Positions 5,170 through 51,115 of a stretch of 64,000 nucleotides of DNA are shown piece by piece. Each line of letters begins with the position of its first letter. Position 1 is the stretch's first letter. The DNA comes from Synechococcus sp. WH 8109 (GTDB lineage: Bacteria > Cyanobacteriota > Cyanobacteriia > PCC-6307 > Cyanobiaceae): positions 372,001 to 436,000 of the forward strand of contig NZ_CP006882.1 of NCBI RefSeq assembly GCF_000161795.2, in the 5' to 3' direction. The notes beneath the pieces are model-generated. The model had not been told where the DNA came from and did not search any database. It saw only the letters and a list, made by a program, of their open reading frames with translations. Made by a program: the position numbers and the translations under genes.

Positions 5170-6390
5170 TTAGTATCCGTTGAAGCGATCCAGGATCAGT
5201 TGTGCCAGCTGATCACTTCCCCCTGCTGGCCCCATCCGCTGCGACCCGATCCGTCCCAGGTGGGAGCGGAGTGCCGGGTTAGCCAGGAGAACTTCGAGCC
5301 GTCTAGTGAGTTCGGATTCATCAGAGCAGGGACGAACCGCTCCCCCCAGCAGGCGGCTCTGACGGCGGGCGAAGCCCGGCTTGAATTGCGGTCCTGGTCC
5401 CGGTAGGGACAGGGCCGGAATGCCCAGGCCCACCAGTTGTTCCGTCGCCGTTCCGGCGGTGGCGATGCCGGCTTCTGCCCAGCCGGCCCATTGGTCAAAG
5501 CAACCTCGCCCGATCAGCACCAGGCAGGCTTCTTTCACCCAGCAAGCTTCGGCACCCAGTTGGTCCGAAGGTGGAAGGCTGCGTCGAAACCCCAGTTGTT
5601 CAAGGCTGTGGCTCAGGGCCTCTGCATCGGGTTGGGCGCCCACGGCCACGAGCAGTGCCGTCGGCACACGGCCGGGCAGCGCCATGGCACCACGAACTAA
5701 CCGCTGCAGGTTGCGCTGGGCCTCTGGCATGCGACTTCCGCAGAGTAGGAGCACTCGGCGGCAGCGTTCCAGGGCCGATGGCAGCGGTTGGACTTGAAGG
5801 CCATCCATCATCGGATTGCCCGGCGCAAGGGCGCCCACGCCCTTGCGTTGCAAACCTCGGGCCGTGAGCCGATCACGCATGGCCACCAGTTGACAGCGGC
5901 GCGAGCGCATCAGGCGCCATTCCCAGGGATCCCACTCACTGCCTTTGAGCCGGTGGTAGCAGTCGCTTTTGGCCCGTCCGGGACCGCTGAGCCAGGTGTA
6001 GTCGCTTTTCGGAGTGCCGATGAAGCCGAAGGGGGCGCCACTGCTCCAGGCCATCAGCAGTGGCAGCAAATCACCCACAGCAACGATGGATTGGCGCTCA
6101 TGTCCCAGGCGGCGTACCAACTGCCATTGACTCCAGCTCAGACTGGGGAGCCCAGCCCTGATGTCTGCCAGAAGTCCTCTCAGGCTTTGGTTGCTGAAGC
6201 CACCACTGGGCAGGGCTGCTTTTGGCCCCAGGCGTGTCAGCCATCCCTGCTGAACTGCAGCATCAAACACACGTCCGGCACCCACCAGAGGAAGCACGGT
6301 CAGGGGGCGTCGAGGTGCGCGCCGATGCACGGCCTGGATGATCCGGAGGGTGATCAGGTCTTCGCCGTGGCCGTTGCAGAGAAACAGCAG
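5170..6390 (-). CDS. Lipid-A-disaccharide synthase-related glycosyltransferase
   Basis: About 400 aa, related to LpxB (the cyanobacterial LpxB-related family). The N-terminus carries the conserved LLFLCNGHGEDLI block, and the C-terminal half has a nucleotide-sugar-like region (GIATAGTATEQLVGLGIPAL). Substrate unknown. The start is a problem. There is no in-frame ATG, GTG or TTG between the conserved block and the tRNA-Cys gene on the opposite strand; the only standard start (TTG at 6480) lies inside the tRNA. I list from a CTG at 6390 as the minimal conserved extent. An ATG at about 6406 exists but is out of frame. Confidence 0.7.
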   Translation of the reverse strand: MLFLCNGHGEDLITLRIIQAVHRRAPRRPLTVLPLVGAGRVFDAAVQQGWLTRLGPKAALPSGGFSNQSLRGLLADIRAGLPSLSWSQWQLVRRLGHERQSIVAVGDLLPLLMAWSSGAPFGFIGTPKSDYTWLSGPGRAKSDCYHRLKGSEWDPWEWRLMRSRRCQLVAMRDRLTARGLQRKGVGALAPGNPMMDGLQVQPLPSALERCRRVLLLCGSRMPEAQRNLQRLVRGAMALPGRVPTALLVAVGAQPDAEALSHSLEQLGFRRSLPPSDQLGAEACWVKEACLVLIGRGCFDQWAGWAEAGIATAGTATEQLVGLGIPALSLPGPGPQFKPGFARRQSRLLGGAVRPCSDESELTRRLEVLLANPALRSHLGRIGSQRMGPAGGSDQLAQLILDRFNGY

Positions 6391-6444
6391 AGAGCCAGGG
6401 GCATGGCTGATACGATCCCCCGATGGGGACGGCTGTTCCCGGGC

Positions 6445-6515
6445 GGCGGCATGGCCAAGTGGTAAGGCAGAGGATTGCAAATCCTTTATCCCCAGTTCGA
6501 ATCTGGGTGCCGCCT
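6445..6515 (+). tRNA. trnC: tRNA-Cys (GCA anticodon)
   Basis: A 71-nt cloverleaf can be folded. The acceptor arms are GGCGGCA and TGCCGCC, with a D arm, an anticodon loop ATTGCAAAT giving anticodon GCA, and a T arm CCCAG-TTCGAAT-CTGGG. The discriminator base is U. CCA is not encoded. It overlaps, in antisense, the 5' extension of the LpxB-related reading frame. Confidence 0.96.
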
Positions 6516-6526
6516 TTGAATCCTCA

Positions 6527-7000
6527 TCACAGTTGAGCCTCCGCGCTCATTCCGGCAACGTTGCGTGAGTGACTCTCGCAGCTCATGGTGTCCGCATCAA
6601 TCCAGCGACGCCCCTGGGCTATGCGGGTTGCAGGGAGGCCTTTGGGGAGGCCTCTGGCATCAAAGCGAACCCATGATGTGCTGAGCAGGGTTGCACTCAA
6701 GCGGCGTGAATCCACGCGGCAGTCTGAGTTGTCGCAGCCGAGCGGACTGCTTTGATCTCCATCAAGACTGACGAAGCTCAACTGGTAGCTGCCCCCCGTT
6801 TTTTGATCGTCTCCGATGAATCGAAGCCGCAGTCCACGGCTTCCGTTCGCGCTGATCTTCAGGCGCTCGCAGGCCAAAGAACGCCCACCGACGACGAGGC
6901 GGCAATGCTCAGGCCTGTGCTCCAGACGGTTAAAAGCCTGGGCTGGATTGACCGTTGCCGGCACGACAAGCAGCAGTGGCGCCATCCAGAGATGAATCAT
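6527..7000 (-). CDS. Putative secreted protein of unknown function
   Basis: 157 aa with a typical signal peptide (MIHLWMAPLLLVVPATVNPAQA, cleavage likely after AQA near residue 21) and four or more cysteines in the mature part, suggesting a disulfide-stabilised extracytoplasmic protein. A much longer frame continues upstream, but it runs antisense through the aldo/keto reductase gene and is not real. The ATG at 7000 overlaps the stop codon of the preceding small gene as TGATG, which indicates translational coupling. No family recognised. Confidence 0.6.
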   Translation of the reverse strand: MIHLWMAPLLLVVPATVNPAQAFNRLEHRPEHCRLVVGGRSLACERLKISANGSRGLRLRFIGDDQKTGGSYQLSFVSLDGDQSSPLGCDNSDCRVDSRRLSATLLSTSWVRFDARGLPKGLPATRIAQGRRWIDADTMSCESHSRNVAGMSAEAQL

Positions 7001-42495: not shown

Positions 42496-42521
42496 CCAGG
42501 ACCCAGATTTGAACTGGGGAC
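42496..42521 (-). repeat. Left att site (tRNA-Phe 3' fragment)
   Basis: 26-bp sequence identical to 51045-51070, covering the T arm and 3' acceptor strand of tRNA-Phe. It continues neither into a complete tRNA nor a cloverleaf, so it marks the element boundary rather than a second tRNA gene. Confidence 0.92.
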
Positions 42522-42569
42522 GTTGCGACAATTTGCCCCTTTAAGCGCTCAATCTGTATAGCGTTGATA

Positions 42570-42596
42570 CAAAAATGCCCTTTTTGGGCGTTTTTG
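42570..42596 (+). terminator. Possible terminator inside the left end
   Basis: Short stem GCCC-TTTTT-GGGC followed by GTTTTTG, between the att site and the arm-like repeats. The four-pair stem is weak, so the call is tentative. Confidence 0.35.
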
Positions 42597-42602
42597 CTTG
42601 CT

Positions 42603-42624
42603 GCTCCCATACCGCTCCCATACC
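42603..42624 (+). repeat. Left tandem arm-type repeats
   Basis: Two perfect tandem copies of GCTCCCATACC (42603-42613 and 42614-42624), 82 bp from the left att core. Near-identical tandem copies are at the right end. Likely arm-type binding sites for the recombinase. Confidence 0.7.
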
Positions 42625-42685
42625 ATCGGGATGATTTGCGGTAGGTCCGAACCACTCCTGGAAGGTGTTTCGGTAGGGGAACTCT

Positions 42686-44113
42686 ATGGGACGGTCGCTG
42701 CCACAGGAATGGATAGACGGCACCCTTCACACCCTCAACGTGGTGCGCGACCTGGGGGGCAAAGGGAACATCCCCCACACCTCTCTATCGGTCGTCCGTC
42801 AGAAACCCAGCGCGAACAGCAGAAAGACCAAGAACCTCCAGTGGCGCTTCCTGCCGGAGAAAGCAGATGACCCTCGTCCGTTTGCTGGCAAAACCAATCG
42901 GGGGCGGGGAAAGCGCATCTATATAGAAGGGACTTGCGGGACCACCGACCCCTGGGAAGCAGCAAAGGTCGCGGTTGCTGCCTCTCAAAAGAAGTGGCAG
43001 GACCTCCTTTCACAGTCCCAAGTGCGGGAAGTGGAGAAGCAACACGCTCTGTCGGTCTATTGGGAGCGTTGGTATGCCAAAGGGGAACTGGAACCACGGA
43101 ACAACCGAAGTCGTTGGTTGAGCGACAAGCGGAATCTTTGGAACGGGACCACAGGCATAGGCGTTCAGCCCTGGGCGACTGTCAAAAGCATTCAGGCGAT
43201 CACGAGCAACGACTTTTTGGAGTTCTTCCGTCTCGTCAGGGAGAACTGTGAAGCGAAGGGCAACTCAGGAGAAGAGACCAGAAGGCAATACAAGACTCTT
43301 ATCCGCAACCTGTTCAAAGAGGCGAAGGCAGATTTCCCCGCTCTGTCCTGCCCTGAGTTTCCTGCGATAAAAAAGAGCGTGCTTCAGAAGAGGCACTTCA
43401 CCCATCAGGAGTGGGATCAATTGGTTCGCATTGCCTCCGAACTGTCTGGTGGTGCTGCTCGCCGCTCTCTGACGGAGGAGGAATACCGGGAACTGCCTTG
43501 GACCCCGACGAACCGTCAGAACTCACGCAACTGGGTTGATTTGTATGACGCGCTCCACATGGAGTGGTTCTATTACCTCCGAAGTGAGGATGCTCCTCGG
43601 TTGAGAAGTGAGTGGTTCAGCGATCAACTGACCGATGCGGGAGAACCACAGGTCATCTGTTTCCTTGAGAAAACAAAGGGTGACAGGGAAAAGCACGACA
43701 CCTATGCCTACCGACCAGATGCGTTGGAGAACGTCCGCCGCATTCTTAAGAGGAAACCACAGGGGTGGTTGAACTTTCCCCACATCAAGAGAACGGAAGG
43801 CAACGAAAACGAGAGCAACGTTGGAGAGACAATCAACTTCCTTCTCAAGAAGGCATGTGAGAAGGCAGGAATCTCAACCAAAGGGATTGATTGGACCACC
43901 TGTCGCCATACCGCGTTCCGCTTGACCTTGGAGGACTACCCAGAACTTGGGACCACGCAATACATCCGGGATTTTGCAGACAACGGTCATACGTCGCCAA
44001 AGATGTTGGAGGAGCGTTATTTGCGCTTTATCCAGCGTGAGAAGACAGCAGCAAAGGCGCGGGCAGCAACCACTCCAGGGAAGTGGTCACTAATAAGCAG
44101 AACGAAGAATTAA
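42686..44113 (+). CDS. Tyrosine recombinase (integrase) of the element
   Basis: 475 aa. The C-terminal catalytic domain has the expected residues: first Arg in RSEDAPRLRSEW, the HxxR pair as CRHTAFRL, a downstream His in NGHTSPKM and the nucleophilic Tyr in EERYLRF. The N-terminal 250 residues form arm-binding and core-binding domains. The ATG at 42686 has a GGGGAA ribosome-binding site. It reads into the element from the left att. Function: excision and integration at tRNA-Phe. Confidence 0.92.
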   Translation: MGRSLPQEWIDGTLHTLNVVRDLGGKGNIPHTSLSVVRQKPSANSRKTKNLQWRFLPEKADDPRPFAGKTNRGRGKRIYIEGTCGTTDPWEAAKVAVAASQKKWQDLLSQSQVREVEKQHALSVYWERWYAKGELEPRNNRSRWLSDKRNLWNGTTGIGVQPWATVKSIQAITSNDFLEFFRLVRENCEAKGNSGEETRRQYKTLIRNLFKEAKADFPALSCPEFPAIKKSVLQKRHFTHQEWDQLVRIASELSGGAARRSLTEEEYRELPWTPTNRQNSRNWVDLYDALHMEWFYYLRSEDAPRLRSEWFSDQLTDAGEPQVICFLEKTKGDREKHDTYAYRPDALENVRRILKRKPQGWLNFPHIKRTEGNENESNVGETINFLLKKACEKAGISTKGIDWTTCRHTAFRLTLEDYPELGTTQYIRDFADNGHTSPKMLEERYLRFIQREKTAAKARAATTPGKWSLISRTKN

Positions 44114-44550
44114 GAGCAATTGATTTGATTATGCTCTGATGTTAATTAAAACTTGACTAGATATTGATTAAACTGTAGAATTGCCTTTGTGGAGGTTGGC
44201 GAAGAATTTCCAGGTTCTTATATTCTTTGTGTCTCAATTGTTGCGTAATACGTTAGTCAAACTCCTGAAATGCATAACTAGGTTTGTGACCTTTGATCTT
44301 AAGGGTGTGTCTAAGTAGGTTCTAAAGGGATGAAAAACAACAGAATCAGATCCCGAAGGGATCAATCCACGAAGTGGATTATATTTTAATCGTTCCAAAA
44401 AACATAGGTGTCTTCTTCGCTTAAGACCGCAAGAGAGCGAGAAAGCCAGCCCACCACTAGGAAGTCCCATTAAATTAACCACCAACCAAACCCCCTATAC
44501 CTCCCCCCTAATCAAACACGTTGAGGAAGCCAAATAGTCAAAGATTTAAC
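44114..44550. other. Non-coding stretch after the integrase, with twin hairpins
   Basis: About 440 AT-rich bp without a gene. It contains two perfect back-to-back hairpins with the same GAA loop: GATCCC-GAA-GGGATC at 44349-44363 and AATCCAC-GAA-GTGGATT at 44364-44380, followed by ATATTTTAAT. They may be an integrase terminator or a protein-binding site. A promoter for the small downstream genes is expected here but was not located. Confidence 0.55.
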
Positions 44551-44700
44551 ATGACCTATACCAAGAGAGAAGCGCCAATCTTGGTTCCCATTGAGCACAA
44601 ACTTTGTTCTGAACTGGGGCTTGATCGCTCTGAACTCCATAAGACGGTAATTAAAGAGTTCTGGAATCGCCGTCAGCAATCCACCTTGTTGTTGATTTGA
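44551..44700 (+). CDS. Tiny element protein, possible ribbon-helix-helix partner
   Basis: 49 aa starting MTYTKREAPILVPIEHKLCSELGL with a helical, basic C-terminal part (SELHKTVIKEFWNRRQQ). The strand-helix-helix order suits a small RHH-type DNA-binding protein but is not diagnostic. Followed 7 bp later by another tiny gene. Confidence 0.45.
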   Translation: MTYTKREAPILVPIEHKLCSELGLDRSELHKTVIKEFWNRRQQSTLLLI

Positions 44701-44707
44701 GGAAGAT

Positions 44708-44848
44708 ATGTCCACAAAAGTATTAATAGACAGCGTTCACGAAACGATGCTGAAGGAACTCGCCAAGAAATTTCGGGCAACCCAGCAGGACTTGGTGGAG
44801 GAATACATCCGCGTCAATTGTAATATCGTCTTTAAAAAGAAGAGGTGA
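44708..44848 (+). CDS. Tiny ribbon-helix-helix-like protein
   Basis: 46 aa, MSTKVLIDSVHETMLKELAKKFRATQQDLVEEYI, with a short beta strand followed by two helices as in CopG/Arc-type regulators, and a basic end (FKKKR). Good ribosome-binding site GAGGAAG six bases before the ATG, partly inside the stop of the preceding gene. Could regulate integrase or the array; inference only. Confidence 0.5.
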   Translation: MSTKVLIDSVHETMLKELAKKFRATQQDLVEEYIRVNCNIVFKKKR

Positions 44849-44877
44849 GAGGTTTTTGTTTCACTGAACTATTAAAT

Positions 44878-45132
44878 TTAAGAGACCTGAAGGAGTTGGA
44901 TTAGATCCGGTAATTCGTCGATCTGAGCAGGTTGTTTGTCTCTGTCATCAACAAAGGTCACTTCATATCCCTCGTAGTTCTTCATTAAATCCAGTTCGAC
45001 GACGTCACCGTTCAGGAACATCCGCACGTTGATCCCCCAGTCAGCGCACTGAACTAGGAGTGACTCAACCTTGTCCTCCTTCAAGTCGGTTAGGAGAGAG
45101 CGGATGGTTTCTTCGGTTTGCGCTGCGTCCAT
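44878..45132 (-). CDS. Element hypothetical protein
   Basis: 84 aa, acidic, with an N-terminal helix (EETIRSLLTDLKEDKVESLLVQCA) and a beta-rich middle (VRMFLNGDVVELDLMKNYEGYEVTFVDD). No family recognised. Same strand as the following small genes. Confidence 0.5.
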   Translation of the reverse strand: MDAAQTEETIRSLLTDLKEDKVESLLVQCADWGINVRMFLNGDVVELDLMKNYEGYEVTFVDDRDKQPAQIDELPDLIQLLQVS

Positions 45133-45146
45133 TGGTCCCTCGGGCG

Positions 45147-45341
45147 TCAGGGAATATCCCCGGAGTCTGAATCCTGCGGCAGGGGACTGGAGTTCAGAGT
45201 CGTTCCGTCTGACCCTTTTGACTCCTGTTCTGCTCTGGTCAATCTCTCCACCAGGTTCAGGGTGTCGTGAGGGGACAAATCACCGTCATCGCCCCACTTG
45301 AGACTGGAAAGATCAGGCGGGCACATGAGGGGGTAAGGCAT
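45147..45341 (-). CDS. Element hypothetical protein
   Basis: 64 aa from the ATG at 45341 (MPYPLMCPPDLSSLKWGDDGD). Central helix (PHDTLNLVERLTRAEQE) and a polar, low-complexity C-terminus. 14 bp upstream of the 84-aa gene on the same strand, so likely co-transcribed. No family. Confidence 0.42.
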   Translation of the reverse strand: MPYPLMCPPDLSSLKWGDDGDLSPHDTLNLVERLTRAEQESKGSDGTTLNSSPLPQDSDSGDIP

Positions 45342-45456
45342 GTATCTGCGCAACCTACGGACGTTGAGATCGCTGTTGCGGCAATGCTCCCCGAAGATTC
45401 ATGGAAGAAATGCTGAATTGAGTGCCTTTGCGATACCGAACTGGTTGGGAGTGGTT

Positions 45457-45921
45457 TTAACCACGCACAATCCGACCACCCAGGCATTGCTCAGAGATGC
45501 TCCAGAACCCCGCCGCTGCTTTCAGGAGTTCTCGATTTGGAGCGAACTCCTCTGTTCGCCAAAAAAGGAGCGCACTGTCCAGCCCAACAAAAATCACTCG
45601 ATTGACGTCCTGGGATTTGGGGACTCGCTTGTGCGGGTTCCATACAAGGTCGTTCTCAAATAGCAGAGCAGTTCCTGAATTAGCGGCGTCCTTGGTGAAG
45701 AAGGACCAAGTGGTTTGGCGGTATTGCTTGGGTTTACTGGACATAAATATTCCAAGTCGTTTGTCCTCCTGGATCAGAACCCCTCGAAGTGCCATAGGAG
45801 TTCGCTCTTCCAAGCGAATGGAAATGGTGGGGACCTCTTCACTGGTTACTTCGCAGACCAAGGGCAGTGGGACTGCACTCGCAGGCATTGCTGACAGAAG
45901 CAGAAGGAGTAATGCCCTCAT
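45457..45921 (-). CDS. Putative secreted protein of the element
   Basis: 154 aa with a clear signal peptide MRALLLLLLSAMPASAVPLP (cleavage after ASA). Mature part is mixed strand/helix with two cysteines (LVCEVT and SEQCLGG) that could pair. No family recognised. The start at 45921 was chosen because it begins the signal peptide. Confidence 0.55.
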   Translation of the reverse strand: MRALLLLLLSAMPASAVPLPLVCEVTSEEVPTISIRLEERTPMALRGVLIQEDKRLGIFMSSKPKQYRQTTWSFFTKDAANSGTALLFENDLVWNPHKRVPKSQDVNRVIFVGLDSALLFWRTEEFAPNRELLKAAAGFWSISEQCLGGRIVRG

Positions 45922-45946
45922 TCGTCCCTCATCAAACACGGCATTC

Positions 45947-46126
45947 TCATGGATTCACCTCAGTTAGGACTTCTCCGTCTTCGCTCAGCACTCGGGTTTT
46001 CCTGCCGATCATCTTGGCGATCCTCTTTGCTTCTTCAGAGGCGACCTCTAATGACGCTGCTCTCGCGTGGAGGTGCCATTCCAAAAAGGGGTTCAGTTCT
46101 TGGATTTGGAACTGATTCCCTGCCAT
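45947..46126 (-). CDS. Small element protein
   Basis: 59 aa, MAGNQFQIQELNPFLEWHLHARAASLEVASEEAKRIAKMIGRKTRVL with an acidic tail. Compact alpha/beta pattern, no family. It lies 25 bp upstream of the secreted-protein gene and 4 bp after the 55-aa gene on the same strand. Confidence 0.45.
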   Translation of the reverse strand: MAGNQFQIQELNPFLEWHLHARAASLEVASEEAKRIAKMIGRKTRVLSEDGEVLTEVNP

Positions 46127-46130
46127 CCCC

Positions 46131-46298
46131 TTAGTCGCCTACCAAGACTTCGTTGATCCGATTTTCGAGCGTCTTCTCCTCCAAGGCGGGGGCAAGCGCG
46201 TCTCCTGTCGCTCTGAGTAGATCAGCAGTGATCTGTCTTGCCTCTGGGTTGGCGTAGATGAAGACCCCAATGGCAATACCCAGCAGAACTCTCAGCAC
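46131..46298 (-). CDS. Small picocyanobacterial membrane-associated protein
   Basis: 55 aa from a GTG start with the ribosome-binding site GAAGG. It begins with a hydrophobic helix (LRVLLGIAIGVFIYANPEARQITADLLRATGDALAP), a pattern I recall from small proteins common in marine Synechococcus, Prochlorococcus and their phages. Function unknown. First gene of the minus-strand run down to 44.9 kb. Confidence 0.5.
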   Translation of the reverse strand: MLRVLLGIAIGVFIYANPEARQITADLLRATGDALAPALEEKTLENRINEVLVGD

Positions 46299-46433
46299 GG
46301 CACCTTCACCTGTTGCTAAATGATCCGACGAACCATCGATGTTGTCATCCCCATCGCCGATGCGATTTTGCCGTATCCACCTCCTCTCTTGCGTATCTCC
46401 ATAACTGCTACTTCCCTTTCCGGTGGTGCCTTT

Positions 46434-46613
46434 TTAATGACCACCTTCCAGTGATCGAGATGTAATTACATCAAACTCTTGAAGTAGAGCGTACGCATCT
46501 TCGAACCGCTCAGCATCTCTGAGTTCTTGGACCTTGTGATTCCACCAAATTCCAGTGTCGATAATTGCTTGGAGTTGTTCAGGCGAGGGGTTGAACCCTG
46601 ATCCTCCAGACAT
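46434..46613 (-). CDS. Small element hypothetical protein
   Basis: 59 aa from MSGGSGFNPSPEQLQAIIDTGIWWNHKVQELRDAERFEDAYALLQEF, helical and acidic. The frame is open to 46706, but MSGGSGF is the more natural start. No family. Confidence 0.45.
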   Translation of the reverse strand: MSGGSGFNPSPEQLQAIIDTGIWWNHKVQELRDAERFEDAYALLQEFDVITSRSLEGGH

Positions 46614-46940
46614 AAACGCCTTTCTGATTTCACGGAAGAGTATCTGCTGAGAACAGGAACGCAAGTAAATCAGGATAAAGGGAGTTTTACCTATGGATCT
46701 GATCATTGAGATAGATATGATAAGTCCTTTGCACTTAATCGTTAGGTCCTTTCAAACTGCACAGGTAGTGCTTGGCAAGAGTGGTATTCCGATCCACTTT
46801 CTGAAAAAATATCCGCTCAGAAATGTTGACTGCAGGAGATTGTGTGTGCCGAGTTGAACCAAAATCTGTAAAGTTGTTTGTGCTTTTAGTGCTCCTTTCC
46901 CCACTCCCCTCAAGCATGTGGAGGAACTTCCCTTCCAGGC
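46614..46940. other. Intergenic stretch within the element
   Basis: About 330 bp with no supported gene. Several short open frames show no start signal or composition support. Promoters for the divergent small genes on either side are expected. Confidence 0.4.
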
Positions 46941-47120
46941 ATGACCCTTTACTGCTACATGCTTTTGGAAGGTCAGAAGGTCTCTTTGGGAGTCCATCCT
47001 GATTCTGTTCTTACTCAGGACTACTCCCTTCCGGATGGCACAGCAGTCCATGTGATTGTTGGGGAGGAGGAGCAGGACAAGTTGTTTGCTCTACAAGGAA
47101 TCCTTGATGAGGAAGAGTGA
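46941..47120 (+). CDS. Small element hypothetical protein
   Basis: 59 aa, MTLYCYMLLEGQKVSLGVHPDSVLTQDYSLPDGTAVHVIVGEEE, beta-rich with an acidic tail. No ribosome-binding site of note and no family; it converges with the 66-aa secreted-protein gene. Confidence 0.4.
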   Translation: MTLYCYMLLEGQKVSLGVHPDSVLTQDYSLPDGTAVHVIVGEEEQDKLFALQGILDEEE

Positions 47121-47136
47121 TTGCTCCACCGAAGAA

Positions 47137-47337
47137 CTAACGGCAAGCAGGATTCCGACTAATGATCTTGGTGTGAGGGTTCCTTGCCATCGCTGCTCTT
47201 TCAGCTTCTTGCCTATTGCTGGCGATTATCTCCTCCTTCCAGGTCTTGCCGCCTGAATAGAGGGTGATTTCCCATTTCCAGGTGCATGGCATTGCTGGTC
47301 CTCCGATTAGTAGAAGTGCAAGGAGCAGTGCTCTCAT
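47137..47337 (-). CDS. Putative small secreted protein
   Basis: 66 aa with a signal peptide (MRALLLALLLIGGPAMPCTW). The mature part is about 48 residues with two cysteines. It overlaps the LprI-like gene start by 4 bp and follows it on the same strand. The N-terminus resembles those of two other element proteins, so the signal sequences may share an origin. Confidence 0.55.
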   Translation of the reverse strand: MRALLLALLLIGGPAMPCTWKWEITLYSGGKTWKEEIIASNRQEAERAAMARNPHTKIISRNPACR

Positions 47338-47648
47338 CCGCCAAGACCCTTGAGTTCTTCCAATAGAACTCGGTTCAGGCGGTCATCGCATCCGACAACC
47401 ATCTGGGGATAGATCGTCCCTTGTCGGTATGGGGCATAGGCAGCGGCACAGGCCTCCTGTGTTGCTGCTTTCCACTTCTCCAGGGTCGCTTGGGGTAGTT
47501 GATCCTTCAGTGCTTGGTTCGACCGTTCCCAACTCTGTGAGGCACAGAACCTCATTTCGTAGGTCGTCAGACCAGGGCACTGGATCTCTCGTTCCTCTGC
47601 CTTCGCAGGCATGAGAGGCAGAAGCAGCAACAGGAGAAGTGTCCTCAT
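47334..47648 (-). CDS. LprI-like (DUF1311) secreted protein
   Basis: 104 aa. Signal peptide MRTLLLLLLLPLMPAKA, then a cysteine-bearing helical domain: QCPGLTTYEMRFCASQSWERSNQALKDQLP, WKAATQEACAAAYAPYRQGTIYPQM, CDDRLNRVLLEEL. Cysteine and tryptophan spacing matches LprI/DUF1311 lysozyme-inhibitor-like proteins. Its ATG overlaps the stop of the 43-aa gene (ATGA), so both are translated from one message. A lysozyme-inhibitor role is inference. Confidence 0.68.
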   Translation of the reverse strand: MRTLLLLLLLPLMPAKAEEREIQCPGLTTYEMRFCASQSWERSNQALKDQLPQATLEKWKAATQEACAAAYAPYRQGTIYPQMVVGCDDRLNRVLLEELKGLGG

Positions 47649-47776
47649 CGCGCCACCTCCTGCTCGCCCTCAGAGTTCAGCCAGTGGAAGAGTGTTTCTC
47701 GGAAAGTTCGCACGACGACTGGACTTTGCCCGCACTCATCTTGTTCGTGCTCATCGTTCAGCGCCACCAGCGGCAC
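47645..47776 (-). CDS. Tiny protein coupled to the LprI-like gene
   Basis: 43 aa, VPLVALNDEHEQDECGQSPVVVRTFRETLFHWLNSEGEQEVAR from a GTG start with GGAAG five bases upstream. The stop overlaps the next ATG, which supports translation. No family. Confidence 0.45.
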   Translation of the reverse strand: MPLVALNDEHEQDECGQSPVVVRTFRETLFHWLNSEGEQEVAR

Positions 47777-47852
47777 TTTCTTCCGTTTTCGCCCTTGGCC
47801 AATCCCTGCGAGCTAGGAGTAGAACGTATGAACTACTTGCAAGGAGGGTTCG

Positions 47853-48083
47853 ATGTCGGAAGAGGAATGGGGCTTTGTGGATGGTCTGAAGCAGAGCAGG
47901 TCCTCATGTGTCTGCATGACGTGCCAGCACTTCTCCTATGTCTGTGACCAGCACTGCCACACGTTGCTGACCTGTGGTCTTCAGCGTCGTCAGGTTCCAC
48001 ACGGCGAGCATCTGACGAAGAGGTGCCGCAACTGGATGGTCCGCAGGGAGACGGAAATGGGTTGGTGCCCGGAGGTGGCGTGA
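47853..48083 (+). CDS. Small cysteine-rich (zinc-binding-like) protein
   Basis: 76 aa with CVCMTC, CDQHC, CGL and RCRNW cysteines arranged as two possible zinc knuckles. Ribosome-binding site AAGGAGGG six bases before the ATG is the strongest in the element. Its stop overlaps the next ATG (TGATG). Similar small proteins are common in marine picocyanobacteria; role unknown. Confidence 0.65.
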   Translation: MSEEEWGFVDGLKQSRSSCVCMTCQHFSYVCDQHCHTLLTCGLQRRQVPHGEHLTKRCRNWMVRRETEMGWCPEVA

Positions 48084-48328
48084 TGCAAGAGGGATGGTTG
48101 ATCGATGCCAATGACCATTGGGTCTGGCGGTTTCACCGGGACAACTCCGCCTGGGTAAAAGATCCGAAGGTCTTTATCGACCGAGGGCGTCAGATGCCCG
48201 AAGGTCCGCCGCTGCTCAAGGAGCGTCGATATCTGAGGAAAGACGCCGCAGAGCAGTTGTGGAGGTCTCTTCAGACGCAGGGGTGGAAGAAGACGAGACC
48301 GCTTTGGGGCGCAACTGCCGAACCCTGA
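48083..48328 (+). CDS. DUF1651-type small protein
   Basis: 81 aa. WLIDANDHWVWRFHRDNSAWVKDPKVFIDRGRQMPEGPPLLKERRYLRKDAAEQLWRSLQTQGWKKTRPLW has the DUF1651 order (WxxD..., FHRD.SW, LLK.RR...A..LW..L...GW). The family is largely restricted to marine Synechococcus and Prochlorococcus. Translationally coupled to the Cys-rich gene. Confidence 0.72.
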   Translation: MQEGWLIDANDHWVWRFHRDNSAWVKDPKVFIDRGRQMPEGPPLLKERRYLRKDAAEQLWRSLQTQGWKKTRPLWGATAEP

Positions 48329-48425
48329 TCAGGTCTTTCTGCGGATGGCGTGCCTTCCCTGAATCTCTAGAAAGAGAACACGACACCTACGGAACCGCAC
48401 TTCATTAGGACGGGGTTAGGTGCCA

Positions 48426-48452
48426 AGGGGCGGGTAACTCCCGCCCTTCTTC
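48426..48452 (+). terminator. Terminator after the DUF1651 operon
   Basis: GGGGCGGG-TAACT-CCCGCCC followed by TTCTTC, 98 bp downstream of the DUF1651 stop. The T tract is short. Confidence 0.6.
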
Positions 48453-48593
48453 ATGGGTAGGCATCTTTAGAGGCAGGGTTGGAAACCTCTGAAGACGCCT
48501 GACTGGGGCATTTCTGCTGAAGAACCTTGAAGCAGCGTCTGACGAGTTGCTTTCTCCGGGATTAGACAGTTGGAAGATCGTCACCCTCTTTGA

Positions 48594-48743
48594 ATGCCTT
48601 CTAGGTGCGTCAACTGCAAGAACTTCCAGGGAGAACCTGGTTTCAATGGGATTTGTCGTGTGTGGCAGCACATAGTTCCTGCCTGGCGCTCTCATTTCTT
48701 CAGATGCGAGCACTGGACGCCCCAGCGGTTCGGCAACCCGTAA
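48594..48743 (+). CDS. Small Cys-motif protein
   Basis: 49 aa: MPSRCVNCKNFQGEPGFNGICRVWQHIVPAWRSHFFRCEHWTPQRFGNP, with CVNC, C and C spaced like a zinc ribbon. Related in style to the 76-aa protein upstream. No clear ribosome-binding site. Confidence 0.5.
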   Translation: MPSRCVNCKNFQGEPGFNGICRVWQHIVPAWRSHFFRCEHWTPQRFGNP

Positions 48744-48798
48744 GCACAAATGCTTATTAGGTGGTGTTAGAACTGTCGTATCGCATGAGAGCGAGGAA

Positions 48799-48830
48799 CC
48801 CAGGAGGGCAAACACTCCTGGGTCTTTTCT
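48799..48830 (+). terminator. Terminator after the 49-aa gene
   Basis: CCCAGGAG paired with CTCCTGGG (7-8 bp stem, loop of 8) followed by TCTTTTCTT. Confidence 0.82.
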
Positions 48831-48927
48831 TGGAAAACGCTCACGGCACCCACGGCAGTCCCTCCTCATCGGTGATGGTGGTCATCGCTGGGCGTCGTCC
48901 CGCCCAGCGGCACTTTCAGTTTCCGAA

Positions 48928-48957
48928 GGAGCGATAGGGATACCGCTCCTTTTTTTG
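48928..48957 (+). terminator. Terminator ahead of the repeat array
   Basis: GGAGCG paired with CGCTCC around a 10-base loop, followed by eight T residues. It insulates the array from upstream transcription. Confidence 0.85.
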
Positions 48958-49154
48958 TGCCTTTGGGATACAAACGGGTGAGCAGTTCCGCTCATGCCCT
49001 GGTGCTCTGAAGCGCCTTAGAACGGGAATGAGGTCAGAGACCGATAGGAACTACACAACCAGGTCTCAAGGATCTTCAGGGGGGGCGCAACGCCCCCCTT
49101 CTCAATGGGCGCTTCTACGGATGGCGGCAAAGGCGTGGATAGCGAGTATTAGGT

Positions 49155-49218
49155 CAACCCTCCGTAAGAGGGTGCAATGCGTCGAACACAGGCAGAGGGT
49201 GGGACCTCTGCTTTTTCT
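49155..49218 (+). ncRNA. Module B copy 1, candidate small RNA
   Basis: Stem CCCTC-CGTAA-GAGGG, unpaired TGCAATGCGTCGAACACAG, then terminator GCAGAGG-GTGGGA-CCTCTGC with TTTTTCTT. The hairpin-linker-terminator layout is that of a trans-acting small RNA. Confidence 0.55.
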
Positions 49219-49243
49219 TGGGTTGTTGACCCCAGTATTCGTT

Positions 49244-49264
49244 TGGTCGTAATGGCGACGACCA
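49244..49264 (+). repeat. Module C hairpin copy 1
   Basis: TGGTCGT-AATGGCG-ACGACCA: a perfect 7-bp stem with a 7-base loop. The identical 21 bases occur at 50486-50506. Confidence 0.75.
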
Positions 49265-49294
49265 GTAGGTGAACCCCGAGTGATCCTTCGGTTG

Positions 49295-49353
49295 CTTCTT
49301 CGATGAAGGGGCAATGCGTCGAACTGGGAGGGGGTGGGACCCCTCTTTTTTTT
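49295..49353 (+). ncRNA. Module B copy 2, candidate small RNA
   Basis: CTTC/GAAG stem, then ATGCGTCGAACTG, then GAGGGG-GTGGGA-CCCCTC followed by eight T residues. Differs from copy 1 in both stems with pairing kept. Confidence 0.55.
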
Positions 49354-49714
49354 GCCGTTTCGTAAAGAGTGCTCTCGCCTTTGCCTTTGGAGCGGTGATG
49401 CTGTCTACGGACCTACTCCCTTGGTTCGACGCATTACCTCCCTTCGTTGGCGGCATTCCCTGCCGCCTTTTTTATTGCCTGTGGGCAACCGAACACGGAA
49501 CGGTCGCCACTAACTGTTTTGAAGGTTCTCCTACTCCACACGGGAGAACGCCACGAGGAAGGTGATGGGGCGTCAGAACGAGAGGACGGGACCCCTGGGG
49601 TGTGGGCACTCCAGGGGTTTTTATTGAGGACCCCTGTAGGGCGGTTATCCCATCAGCAATGTGTCTTCAAGGCACATTCAGAGTCCATAGCGTTTTCCCA
49701 GTCATTTCTTATCC

Positions 49715-49960
49715 ATGACAGAAGAGAACGCCAGCAAGGAAAACTCCAGCAAGTGCGGCGGCAAGAACAAAGCGATGCTCGCCTATGGAGTCATCCAAAT
49801 CTCCGCCACCGTCGTTTCCGCCATCTCCTTGGCAGCAATCGCGCTTGGTCTCTGCGCTGTGAAGCAGGAGAGCAAAGCATTTAACGGTTGCGTTCAAGAG
49901 GTCATCGCTGAGGGCAAGACCAACGCTGCAGCAGTTCGCTTCTGCAACGGCGGAAACTAA
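49715..49960 (+). CDS. Small single-pass membrane protein between array units
   Basis: 81 aa. A polar N-terminus (MTEENASKENSSKCGGKNKA) precedes one long hydrophobic helix (MLAYGVIQISATVVSAISLAAIALGLCAV) and a short C-terminal domain with cysteines (GCVQEVI, RFCNGG). It sits directly between repeat unit 1 and the second module A. No family; it might use the terminator-flanked position as a cassette. Confidence 0.6.
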   Translation: MTEENASKENSSKCGGKNKAMLAYGVIQISATVVSAISLAAIALGLCAVKQESKAFNGCVQEVIAEGKTNAAAVRFCNGGN

Positions 49961-49964
49961 GCAG

Positions 49965-50197
49965 TAGTTCAGCTCATGCCCTGGTGCTCTGAAGCGCCTT
50001 AGAACGGAAATGAGGTCAGAGACCGCTGAAGCAGTAACCAGGTCTCAATGACCTTTAGGGGGGCGCCGCTTGCCCCCCTTCTTAATGGGCGCTTTTACGG
50101 ATGGCGGCGCGTCTGTTGCGTCGCGAATATCTGTTCATCCCTCGTAATAGGGGGAAGGATGCGTCATGAGGGGAGCGGGTGGGACCGCTCCTTTTTT
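49965..50197 (+). ncRNA. Partial repeat unit (modules A-B)
   Basis: Module A (49965-50108) matches unit 1 closely through CTCATGCCCTGGTGCTCTGA and the GAGGTCAGAGACC hairpin. Its GC hairpin is GGGGGGC/GCCCCCC. Module B follows to 50197 with terminator GGAGCGG-GTGGGA-CCGCTCC and six T residues. Modules C, D and E are missing. Confidence 0.62.
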
Positions 50198-50400
50198 GTG
50201 CTCCGTCGATACAGAAAGCGGTAGTTCCGCTCATGCCTCACTGCTCTGACCCGCCTTAAAACAGGGATGAGGTCAGAGACCGAACAGGTCGGAAACCAGG
50301 TCTCAACGACCTTCAGGGGGGGGATGTCTGCTCATCCCCCTTCTTAATGAGCGGTTCTACCGATGGTGGAAGTGTTTGTAGCGGAGCGAACATAAAAGAG

Positions 50401-50460
50401 CATCATCCGTAAGAGATGAATGCGTCGAACACAGCAGAGGGTGGGACCTCTGCTTTTTTT
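50401..50460 (+). ncRNA. Module B copy 4, candidate small RNA
   Basis: First stem is CATC...GATG instead of CCCTC...GAGGG, a compensated replacement. The conserved ATGCGTCGAACACAG linker and the GCAGAGG-GTGGGA-CCTCTGC terminator are identical to copy 1. Confidence 0.55.
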
Positions 50461-50485
50461 TGGGTTGCTCACCTAAGTAGTCGTT

Positions 50486-50506
50486 TGGTCGTAATGGCGA
50501 CGACCA
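50486..50506 (+). repeat. Module C hairpin copy 2
   Basis: Identical 21-base hairpin to 49244-49264 (TGGTCGT stem, AATGGCG loop). Confidence 0.75.
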
Positions 50507-50538
50507 GTAAGTATTTCTTCGGTCACCCTGCTGATGTT

Positions 50539-50598
50539 CCCTTCGGTGAGGGGACGATGCGTCGAACTGGGAGCGGGTGGGACCGCTCCTTTTTTTTG
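50539..50598 (+). ncRNA. Module B copy 5, candidate small RNA
   Basis: CCCT...AGGG stem, ATGCGTCGAACTG linker, then GAGCGG-GTGGGA-CCGCTC followed by nine T residues. Confidence 0.55.
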
Positions 50599-50922
50599 GC
50601 AGTTCGTTAACGGCACCCACGACACCACTGACTGCCTGAAGAGGGTGGTGTCGCTGGTACCCCAGCGTTTTCGACGCGTTCGTCCCCTTGTTTCTGGCGG
50701 CACTCCCTCCCGCCTTTTTTATTTCCTGGGGCATACGAACCTGATCGGCACGCACTACCAAAACTGTCGGATCCCCTACTCCTCACAGGAGCACGCCTGG
50801 AGGAAGGTGAATGGGTCGAGTAATCGAGGGGATTGACCCCTGAGGGTGGGAATACCTCAGGGGTCTTTTTTCTTGTGGGTAGGGGAAATCTGGGGACCTT
50901 TCCCGTCTGACCAACAGGGCGT

Positions 50923-50944
50923 GCTCCCCTACTGCTCCCCTACC
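50923..50944 (+). repeat. Right tandem arm-type repeats
   Basis: GCTCCCCTACT and GCTCCCCTACC in tandem, matching the left-end repeats (GCTCCCATACC) with one or two changes. They lie 101 bp from the right att core. Confidence 0.7.
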
Positions 50945-50980
50945 GGTTCGGCAAAAGTCAATTAGGTGCTTGAAGTACTA

Positions 50981-51026
50981 AAAAGGCACGTAACAACACC
51001 AGATATGGTGCTTTCACGTGCCTTTT
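50981..51026. terminator. Long hairpin downstream of tRNA-Phe, likely bidirectional terminator
   Basis: Perfect 11-bp inverted repeat AAAAGGCACGT/ACGTGCCTTTT enclosing a second small stem (ACACCA/TGGTGC). It lies 17 bp from the tRNA-Phe 3' end, on the element side. It can end tRNA transcription and stop element transcripts entering the tRNA. Confidence 0.75.
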
Positions 51027-51042
51027 GAGGCGTTTCGGGAGA

Positions 51043-51115
51043 TGCCAGGACCCAGATTTGAACTGGGGACACGGCGATTTTCAGTCGCCTGCTCTACCAA
51101 CTGAGCTATCCCGGC
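51043..51115 (-). tRNA. trnF: tRNA-Phe (GAA anticodon), integration target
   Basis: 73-nt cloverleaf on the minus strand. Acceptor GCCGGGA/TCCTGGC with one G-T pair, anticodon loop ACTGAAAAT giving GAA, T arm CCCAG-TTCAAAT-CTGGG, discriminator A. The last 26 bases (51045-51070) are the att repeat, so its 3' end is probably supplied by the element while the 5' part is chromosomal. Confidence 0.96.

Follow-up and report, generated by a model that had tools for sequence, protein, structure and literature searches.

A predicted small-RNA cassette on a tRNA-Phe integrative element of marine Synechococcus

An ordered and partly duplicated array of short structured modules was identified in marine Synechococcus sp. 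WH 8109, within a 64,000-nucleotide stretch of DNA, hereafter the window (contig NZ_CP006882.1, positions 372,001 to 436,000; the coordinates below count from its first letter). The array is borne by an integrative element of about 8.6 kb (42496-51070), of which it occupies the tRNA end, and on balance we favour the view that it represents a multi-gene cassette of predicted small regulatory RNAs. The prediction draws on the conservation, structure and complementarity of the modules among related genomes.

The element and the layout of its array

The carriage of the array by an integrative element, as proposed in the initial annotation, was borne out by the flanking sequences. The 3' end of the tRNA-Phe gene is repeated directly at both ends of the element (26/26 bp), and the left flank abuts tRNA-Phe, with the site uninterrupted, in seven relatives, among them genome G002, of which the right flank is interrupted further on. 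The occupied site was found in four genomes (G000, G012, G027 and G028; the region of G027 falls short of the left flank). The att repeat together with the empty sites thus defines the element, for which the following features were recognized.

42496-42521, no strand assigned: attL-like copy of the tRNA-Phe 3' end, CCAGGACCCAGATTTGAACTGGGGAC, identical at 26/26 positions to 51045-51070
42686-44113, plus strand: tyrosine recombinase candidate of 475 aa, with C-terminal RHTAFR...GHTSPKMLEERY boxes read by eye
48023-48328, plus strand: gene for a DUF1651 protein (PF07864, E 6e-23), directly upstream of the array
51045-51070, minus strand: attR-like repeat within the 3' end of tRNA-Phe (gene 51043-51115, minus strand)

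To judge from these boxes, the 475-aa gene probably encodes the tyrosine recombinase of the element. Its copies in other tRNA-Phe elements are 94-97% identical; profile searches of Pfam, PHROGs and PDB gave no match, and the AlphaFold model is poor (pLDDT 32.7). A tRNA site, a duplicated tRNA end, a recombinase and a small variable cargo are the marks of tycheposons and similar elements of marine picocyanobacteria; the present element shares the site, the duplicated end, a recombinase-like gene and the small variable cargo, its recombinase type resting on the motifs read by eye. No mention of an RNA array of such kind in tycheposons or tRNA-flanked elements was found in the open literature.

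Using profile searches, we placed the array at 48751-50871, with the modules in the order T1-T2-A-B-C-D-E, a small open reading frame, A-B, and again A-B-C-D-E.

48751-48835, plus strand: T1 module, conserved ATCGCATGAGAGCGA hairpin region plus terminator
48863-48961, plus strand: T2 module, conserved CACTTTCAGTTTCCGAAGGAGCGATAGGGATACCGCTCC plus T-run
48983-49107, plus strand: A module of unit 1, GAGGTCAGAGACC...GGTCTCAA-GACCTT stem and G-run/C-run hairpin
49106-49221, plus strand: B module of unit 1, seed ATGCGTCGAAC at 49177-49187, terminator
49226-49352, plus strand: C module of unit 1, homologous to a chromosomal RNA, seed at 49314-49324
49361-49478, plus strand: D module of unit 1, anti-seed GTTCGACGCAT at 49424-49434, invariant GGCGGCATTCCCTGCCGCC terminator
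49484-49625, plus strand: E module of unit 1, CUCCUACUCC(U)CAC motif, covarying terminator
49715-49960, plus strand: 81-aa open reading frame between the units, one hydrophobic stretch
49964-50087, plus strand: A module, extra copy
50086-50197, plus strand: B module, extra copy, variant seed ATGCGTCATGA
50221-50349, plus strand: A module of unit 2
50348-50463, plus strand: B module of unit 2, seed at 50420-50430
50467-50595, plus strand: C module of unit 2, seed at 50557-50567
50605-50723, plus strand: D module of unit 2, anti-seed TTCGACGCGTTCGTCCCC at about 50670-50687
50730-50871, plus strand: E module of unit 2, CTACTCCTCAC, terminator

The repeats described in the initial annotation were all recovered, with the direct repeat of A at 48981, 49963 and 50220, the seed and terminator of B at 49161, 50143 and 50406, C at 49223 and 50465, D at 49361 and 50605, and E at 49484 and 50730. 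Unit 2 matches unit 1 from end to end with 73% identity (E 1e-83); for the additional A-B copy the figure is 78%. Some details of that description had to be changed: the order A-B-C-B-D-E had been given a second B, which turned out to belong to a single RNA, C, as its 3' half, with a seed and terminator paralogous to B, and the array begins earlier than had been supposed, with T1 and T2.

The modules are about 85-140 nt long, each ends in an intrinsic terminator, and they abut almost without gaps. A ViennaRNA-based scan of 48300-50900 detected 10 terminator-like hairpins on the plus strand, in agreement with the nine or more predicted earlier, and no hairpin followed by a T-run on the minus strand. 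Elsewhere in the window the density is 0.10 (plus) and 0.14 (minus) per kb, so that terminators are enriched about 30-fold in the 2.6-kb array region, on the plus strand only. A separate consensus scan gave 15 terminator-like sites against 3.5 +/- 2.2 in shuffled sequences. The search for sigma-70-like promoters in 47800-51050 found none, 0.8 being expected by chance. Possible ways past ten serial terminators, with no recognizable promoter between them, are a processed precursor, leaky termination, an element-specific promoter and antitermination.

At the gathering score, Rfam matches in the window were confined to tRNAs and to a ribosomal S1 leader, which is unrelated, and no family was assigned to the array; with the limit relaxed to E values up to 5, a weak match to mir-4788 appeared, but no credible family emerged for the array. 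The S1 leader, Cyano-S1 (RF03151; 56676-56761, minus strand), is an ordinary feature.

The statement that no plausible protein fits the array holds for the RNA modules but not for the array as a whole, which includes the 81-aa open reading frame between the units. This frame is 93-99% identical in two further genomes (loci L043 and L041), has weaker relatives at L183 and L193, and gave no match in Pfam or PHROGs. In other genomes it is conserved both beside arrays and near tRNA-Phe or tRNA-Ser. Strings of the AGGA/GGTG...ATG type occur in several modules, for instance GAGGAAGGTGATGGGG in E, and would fit modules that encode very short peptides instead of regulatory RNAs. That reading is nevertheless very improbable, as no frame of more than 40 codons is kept open in 80% of the sequences of any module and the gaps between copies break the frame. 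Protein-coding repeats were likewise rejected, for lack of a long conserved open frame in any module.

Distribution, conservation and folding of the modules

Among the 34 genomes of the genus, 17 contain a match to the array unit; a few genomes of other genera gave weak or partial matches. The same succession of modules is seen in more than ten further genomes of marine Synechococcus (array carriers include Synechococcus sp. MU1642, AG-670-A05 and ARS1019), often on different islands, and in several of them the arrays lie near tRNA-Phe, tRNA-Ser or tRNA-Cys, as well as at other sites. The order is kept across islands at different tRNAs, and modules are reshuffled, duplicated or lost between arrays. 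The genome of the window itself carries a further C-D-E copy at 846092, with flanks common to genome G023 and a PIN-PhoH gene about 3.4 kb away, and a lone C at 1647659. At loci L034 (6107-6506 and 9862-11250) and L048 (8822-9086 and 3443-4831), a chromosomal C-D-E or D-E copy lies 3-4 kb from a PIN-PhoH gene; the distance from the copy to a Cyano-2 RNA (RF01702) is about 2.2 kb in L034 and 7 kb in L048. Genome G002 has arrays at 778598-779406 and 829452-830089, a D-E at 1423947-1424159 and a chromosomal C at 1932293-1932410.

In a neighbouring genus, two genomes have smaller arrays (L182, minus strand, 5872-6664; L183, 1174-1614), which include an E and a seed RNA and lie close to a DUF1651 gene. 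Genes of the DUF1651 family thus accompany arrays in two genera, in other genomes as well as in the window. The RNAs of these arrays are preceded by a repeated block like CCTACAAATAGGTTCCGCTTGATACA, a promoter candidate, and their A modules have GTTCCGCTC in common.

Module C folds into three hairpins with an unpaired AUGCGUCGAAC stretch, referred to as the seed, ahead of the terminator. Within it, GCGUC is invariant in all 21 C sequences compared and unpaired in the consensus structure, and its flanks are nearly invariant. The covariation score of C (0.269, against 0.167 in shuffled alignments) was reached by none of 500 shuffles and exceeds that of every slid register, with 95% of cells paired; since shuffling leaves the relatedness of the sequences in place, this covariation is support and not proof. 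For the terminator of E, covariation again lies above all 500 shuffles and every slid register. In both C and the E terminator, the pairs retained through compensatory changes are of the RNA type, G-U among them.

The initial annotation had suggested a family of structured RNAs and had named a lack of copies elsewhere and of preserved pairing as grounds for abandoning it; both copies and pairing were found. Half of the genomes of the genus have copies, and compensatory changes preserve the pairing in the hairpins of both C and E. In addition, C occupies a syntenic place on the chromosome of at least five genomes, where the lone C is flanked by a leucyl aminopeptidase gene on one side and by a glutamine-II riboswitch / msrA / lpxB region on the other. 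The C covariance model recognized 30 of 271 family genomes at E <= 0.001, all in two genera.

Two further readings are to be weighed against this conservation. An old duplication of terminator-containing sequence, by now decayed and without present function, would account for degraded copies such as the B with ATGCGTCATGA and the D terminator of unit 2, which has a mismatch; but sequence blocks are conserved and pairs covary across diverged copies, and module order is kept between islands at different tRNAs, which makes decay quite improbable. The modules could also act as DNA, folding as single strands into sites at which the island recombines, replicates or is packaged, comparable to integron attC sites or a packaging signal. 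The reshuffling, duplication and loss of modules and the position of the array at an att end of the element agree with such a role. However, only one strand has T-runs behind its hairpins, the compensatory changes preserve G-U and other RNA-type pairs, C and C-D-E are also retained at fixed places in the chromosome that are distant from att sites, and no array match was obtained in phage records or, with three patterns, in viral contigs, so that we regard action as DNA as improbable. The pattern GATGCGTCGAACTNGGG is over-specific, and little can be concluded from its search. The 'structured cassette system' of the initial annotation, if understood as a recombination cassette, finds no support. 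Integron attC arrays were rejected, as was CRISPR, the repeats being structured and long and having no spacers.

Module B has the same seed as C, in the form (GGGG..)AUGCGUCGAAC just ahead of the terminator. Weaker matches of the C model share mainly the GGGG-AUGCGUCGA-terminator end and differ in their 5' parts, which suggests a wider group of RNAs with one seed. Further RNAs with GCGTCG ahead of a terminator and other 5' parts were seen at loci L119, L123, L124, L126 and L128-L131, possibly several core small-RNA genes with one seed. A map of transcription start sites exists for Synechococcus CC9605 (PMC5069720).

Module E has a conserved GGUU-UCC-nCUCC block and resembles in part the Yfr RNAs. 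Yfr1 and Yfr10, two RNAs that pair with mRNAs, are defined by the ACUCCUCACAC motif, and both are blocked by the complementary Yfr2 (PMC6778093). At least 9 of the 11 bases of this motif are present in 10 of 25 E copies, against 1.4% of shuffles; the full Yfr1 motif is absent from most E copies, and its loop position is not conserved in all of them. The Yfr1 covariance model (RF01116) had no match in the array region even at E up to 5, and the chromosomal Yfr1 was found elsewhere in the same genome. So was a Cyano-1 RNA (RF01701) with both sequence features described for Yfr2, for the motifs of which the modules showed no enrichment.

Complementarity between module D and the common seed

The weak mir-4788 match drew our attention to a complementarity between C and D. 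Nearly every D examined contains an antisense of the B/C seed of the TCGACGC type, two of them with TTGACGC; in most, CGTCCCC comes next, which is complementary to the bases preceding the seed. When antisense scores of 19 module pairs were compared with those of shuffled sequences, C-D (mean z 4.1) and B-D (3.0) were the sole pairs with clear complementarity, all others remaining at 1.6 or below. Strong scores for the D family were obtained in 11 genomes of the genus and in one of another genus, and strong matches are confined to genomes that also have C.

A duplex of C with the D of its own array is not stronger than one formed across arrays (-37.6 versus -38.1 kcal/mol), indicating that D is not tuned to its own neighbouring C. 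Such parity is expected if D acts on the whole family, chromosomal copies included, and equally if D was inherited from an inverted C, which it resembles and from which the seed match could come. Co-variation of D with the neighbouring C is not required of a trans-acting sponge. Several shuffled versions of D gave stronger duplexes than D itself, probably due to G+C-rich strings, so that duplex energies alone are no proof of pairing by D. The terminator hairpin of D, GGCGGCATTCCCTGCCGCC (49449-49467 in the window, and in D of other loci), is nearly invariant, unlike the covarying terminators of C and E, and may do more than end transcription.

The same complementarity could operate in cis. The array would then be one long leader-like RNA with serial terminators that serve as an attenuator or insulator at the end of the island, in which D pairs with C and B and thereby alters termination, and no free small RNAs would be made. 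The lack of an internal sigma-70-like promoter, the nearly gapless modules and, in unit 1, a pairing of the D anti-seed that reaches into the 5' arm of the C terminator are in accord with a long leader. We consider it unlikely all the same: there is no protein gene between the array and tRNA-Phe, which lies on the opposite strand, C occurs alone on the chromosome, and the pairing that reaches into the C terminator is no general feature of the arrays.

A predicted riboregulatory cassette and its relation to known systems

Under the favoured interpretation of the array as a cassette of small regulatory RNAs, each module would give rise to a short structured RNA. Since B and C have the seed and fold of an RNA fixed on the chromosome, they should hit the targets of this host RNA, whereas D, by virtue of its complementarity, is predicted to bind B, C and the host RNA and to neutralize them as a sponge or anti-sRNA. 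E would expose a CUCC-rich motif like that of Yfr1 and Yfr10, which pairs with mRNA leaders (PMC6778093), and may in this way block ribosome-binding sites. Jointly the modules could let the island adjust the post-transcriptional control of the host. What the sequences show is the element itself and the conservation, folding and complementarity of its modules; transcription of the modules, binding between their RNAs and an effect on the host are inferred. The DUF1651 neighbour hints, without proof, at such adjustment during stress or phage infection, as DUF1651 genes respond to cyanophage infection in several marine Synechococcus and Prochlorococcus strains (PMC5490813). More speculatively, the element might carry a complete riboregulatory circuit, made up of copies of a host-type small RNA, an antisense 'off' RNA and a Yfr-type RNA. 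Such a circuit would be turned on as a whole, by other means than ordinary promoters and perhaps in phage infection, and would override the host post-transcriptional network via RNA alone; we put this forward as a tentative possibility.

Complementary small-RNA pairs and island-borne non-coding RNAs are already known in picocyanobacteria. In Prochlorococcus, the complementary Yfr10 and Yfr2 are adjacent and co-transcribed as a common precursor within a genomic island, and the non-coding RNAs Yfr8-Yfr20 are concentrated in genomic islands, some of them being phage-responsive (PMC2518516). The Yfr1/Yfr10/Yfr2 system resembles the array in that picocyanobacterial small RNAs with a common short seed, and otherwise different, are accompanied by a second RNA complementary to the seed, and its CUCC-rich motif is approached by E. 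It differs in that the B/C seed AUGCGUCGAAC and the D anti-seed are other sequences and that here seven module types without an Rfam match form an ordered, duplicated array. Yfr8-Yfr20 are scattered single genes, in contrast to the ordered, terminator-delimited array described here. Among RNA antagonists of small RNAs, CJnc180 acts against CJnc190 (PMC8687705). Cis- and trans-encoded antagonists of this type pair with a small RNA and block it, as is predicted for D; but D is encoded beside and not opposite its partner, and travels with mimics of that partner on a mobile island. No paper on the array or on its seed sequence was found in the open literature (subscription papers lay outside the search), and what appears to be new is the variant in which an ordered, duplicated, mobile array joins homologues of a host small RNA with an anti-seed RNA.

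If this reading is correct, marine Synechococcus would possess an unnamed small-RNA family (C, with its chromosomal homologue), an antagonist of it (D) and a mobile vehicle that carries both between genomes. A direct way would be at hand to ask how islands alter host regulation in a major primary producer of the ocean. Disruption of a PIN-PhoH-type gene in strain WH8102 raised phage yield (PMC5490813), and with DUF1651 genes beside the arrays and PIN-PhoH genes near chromosomal C-D-E copies, a link of these RNAs to the phage response could also be sought.
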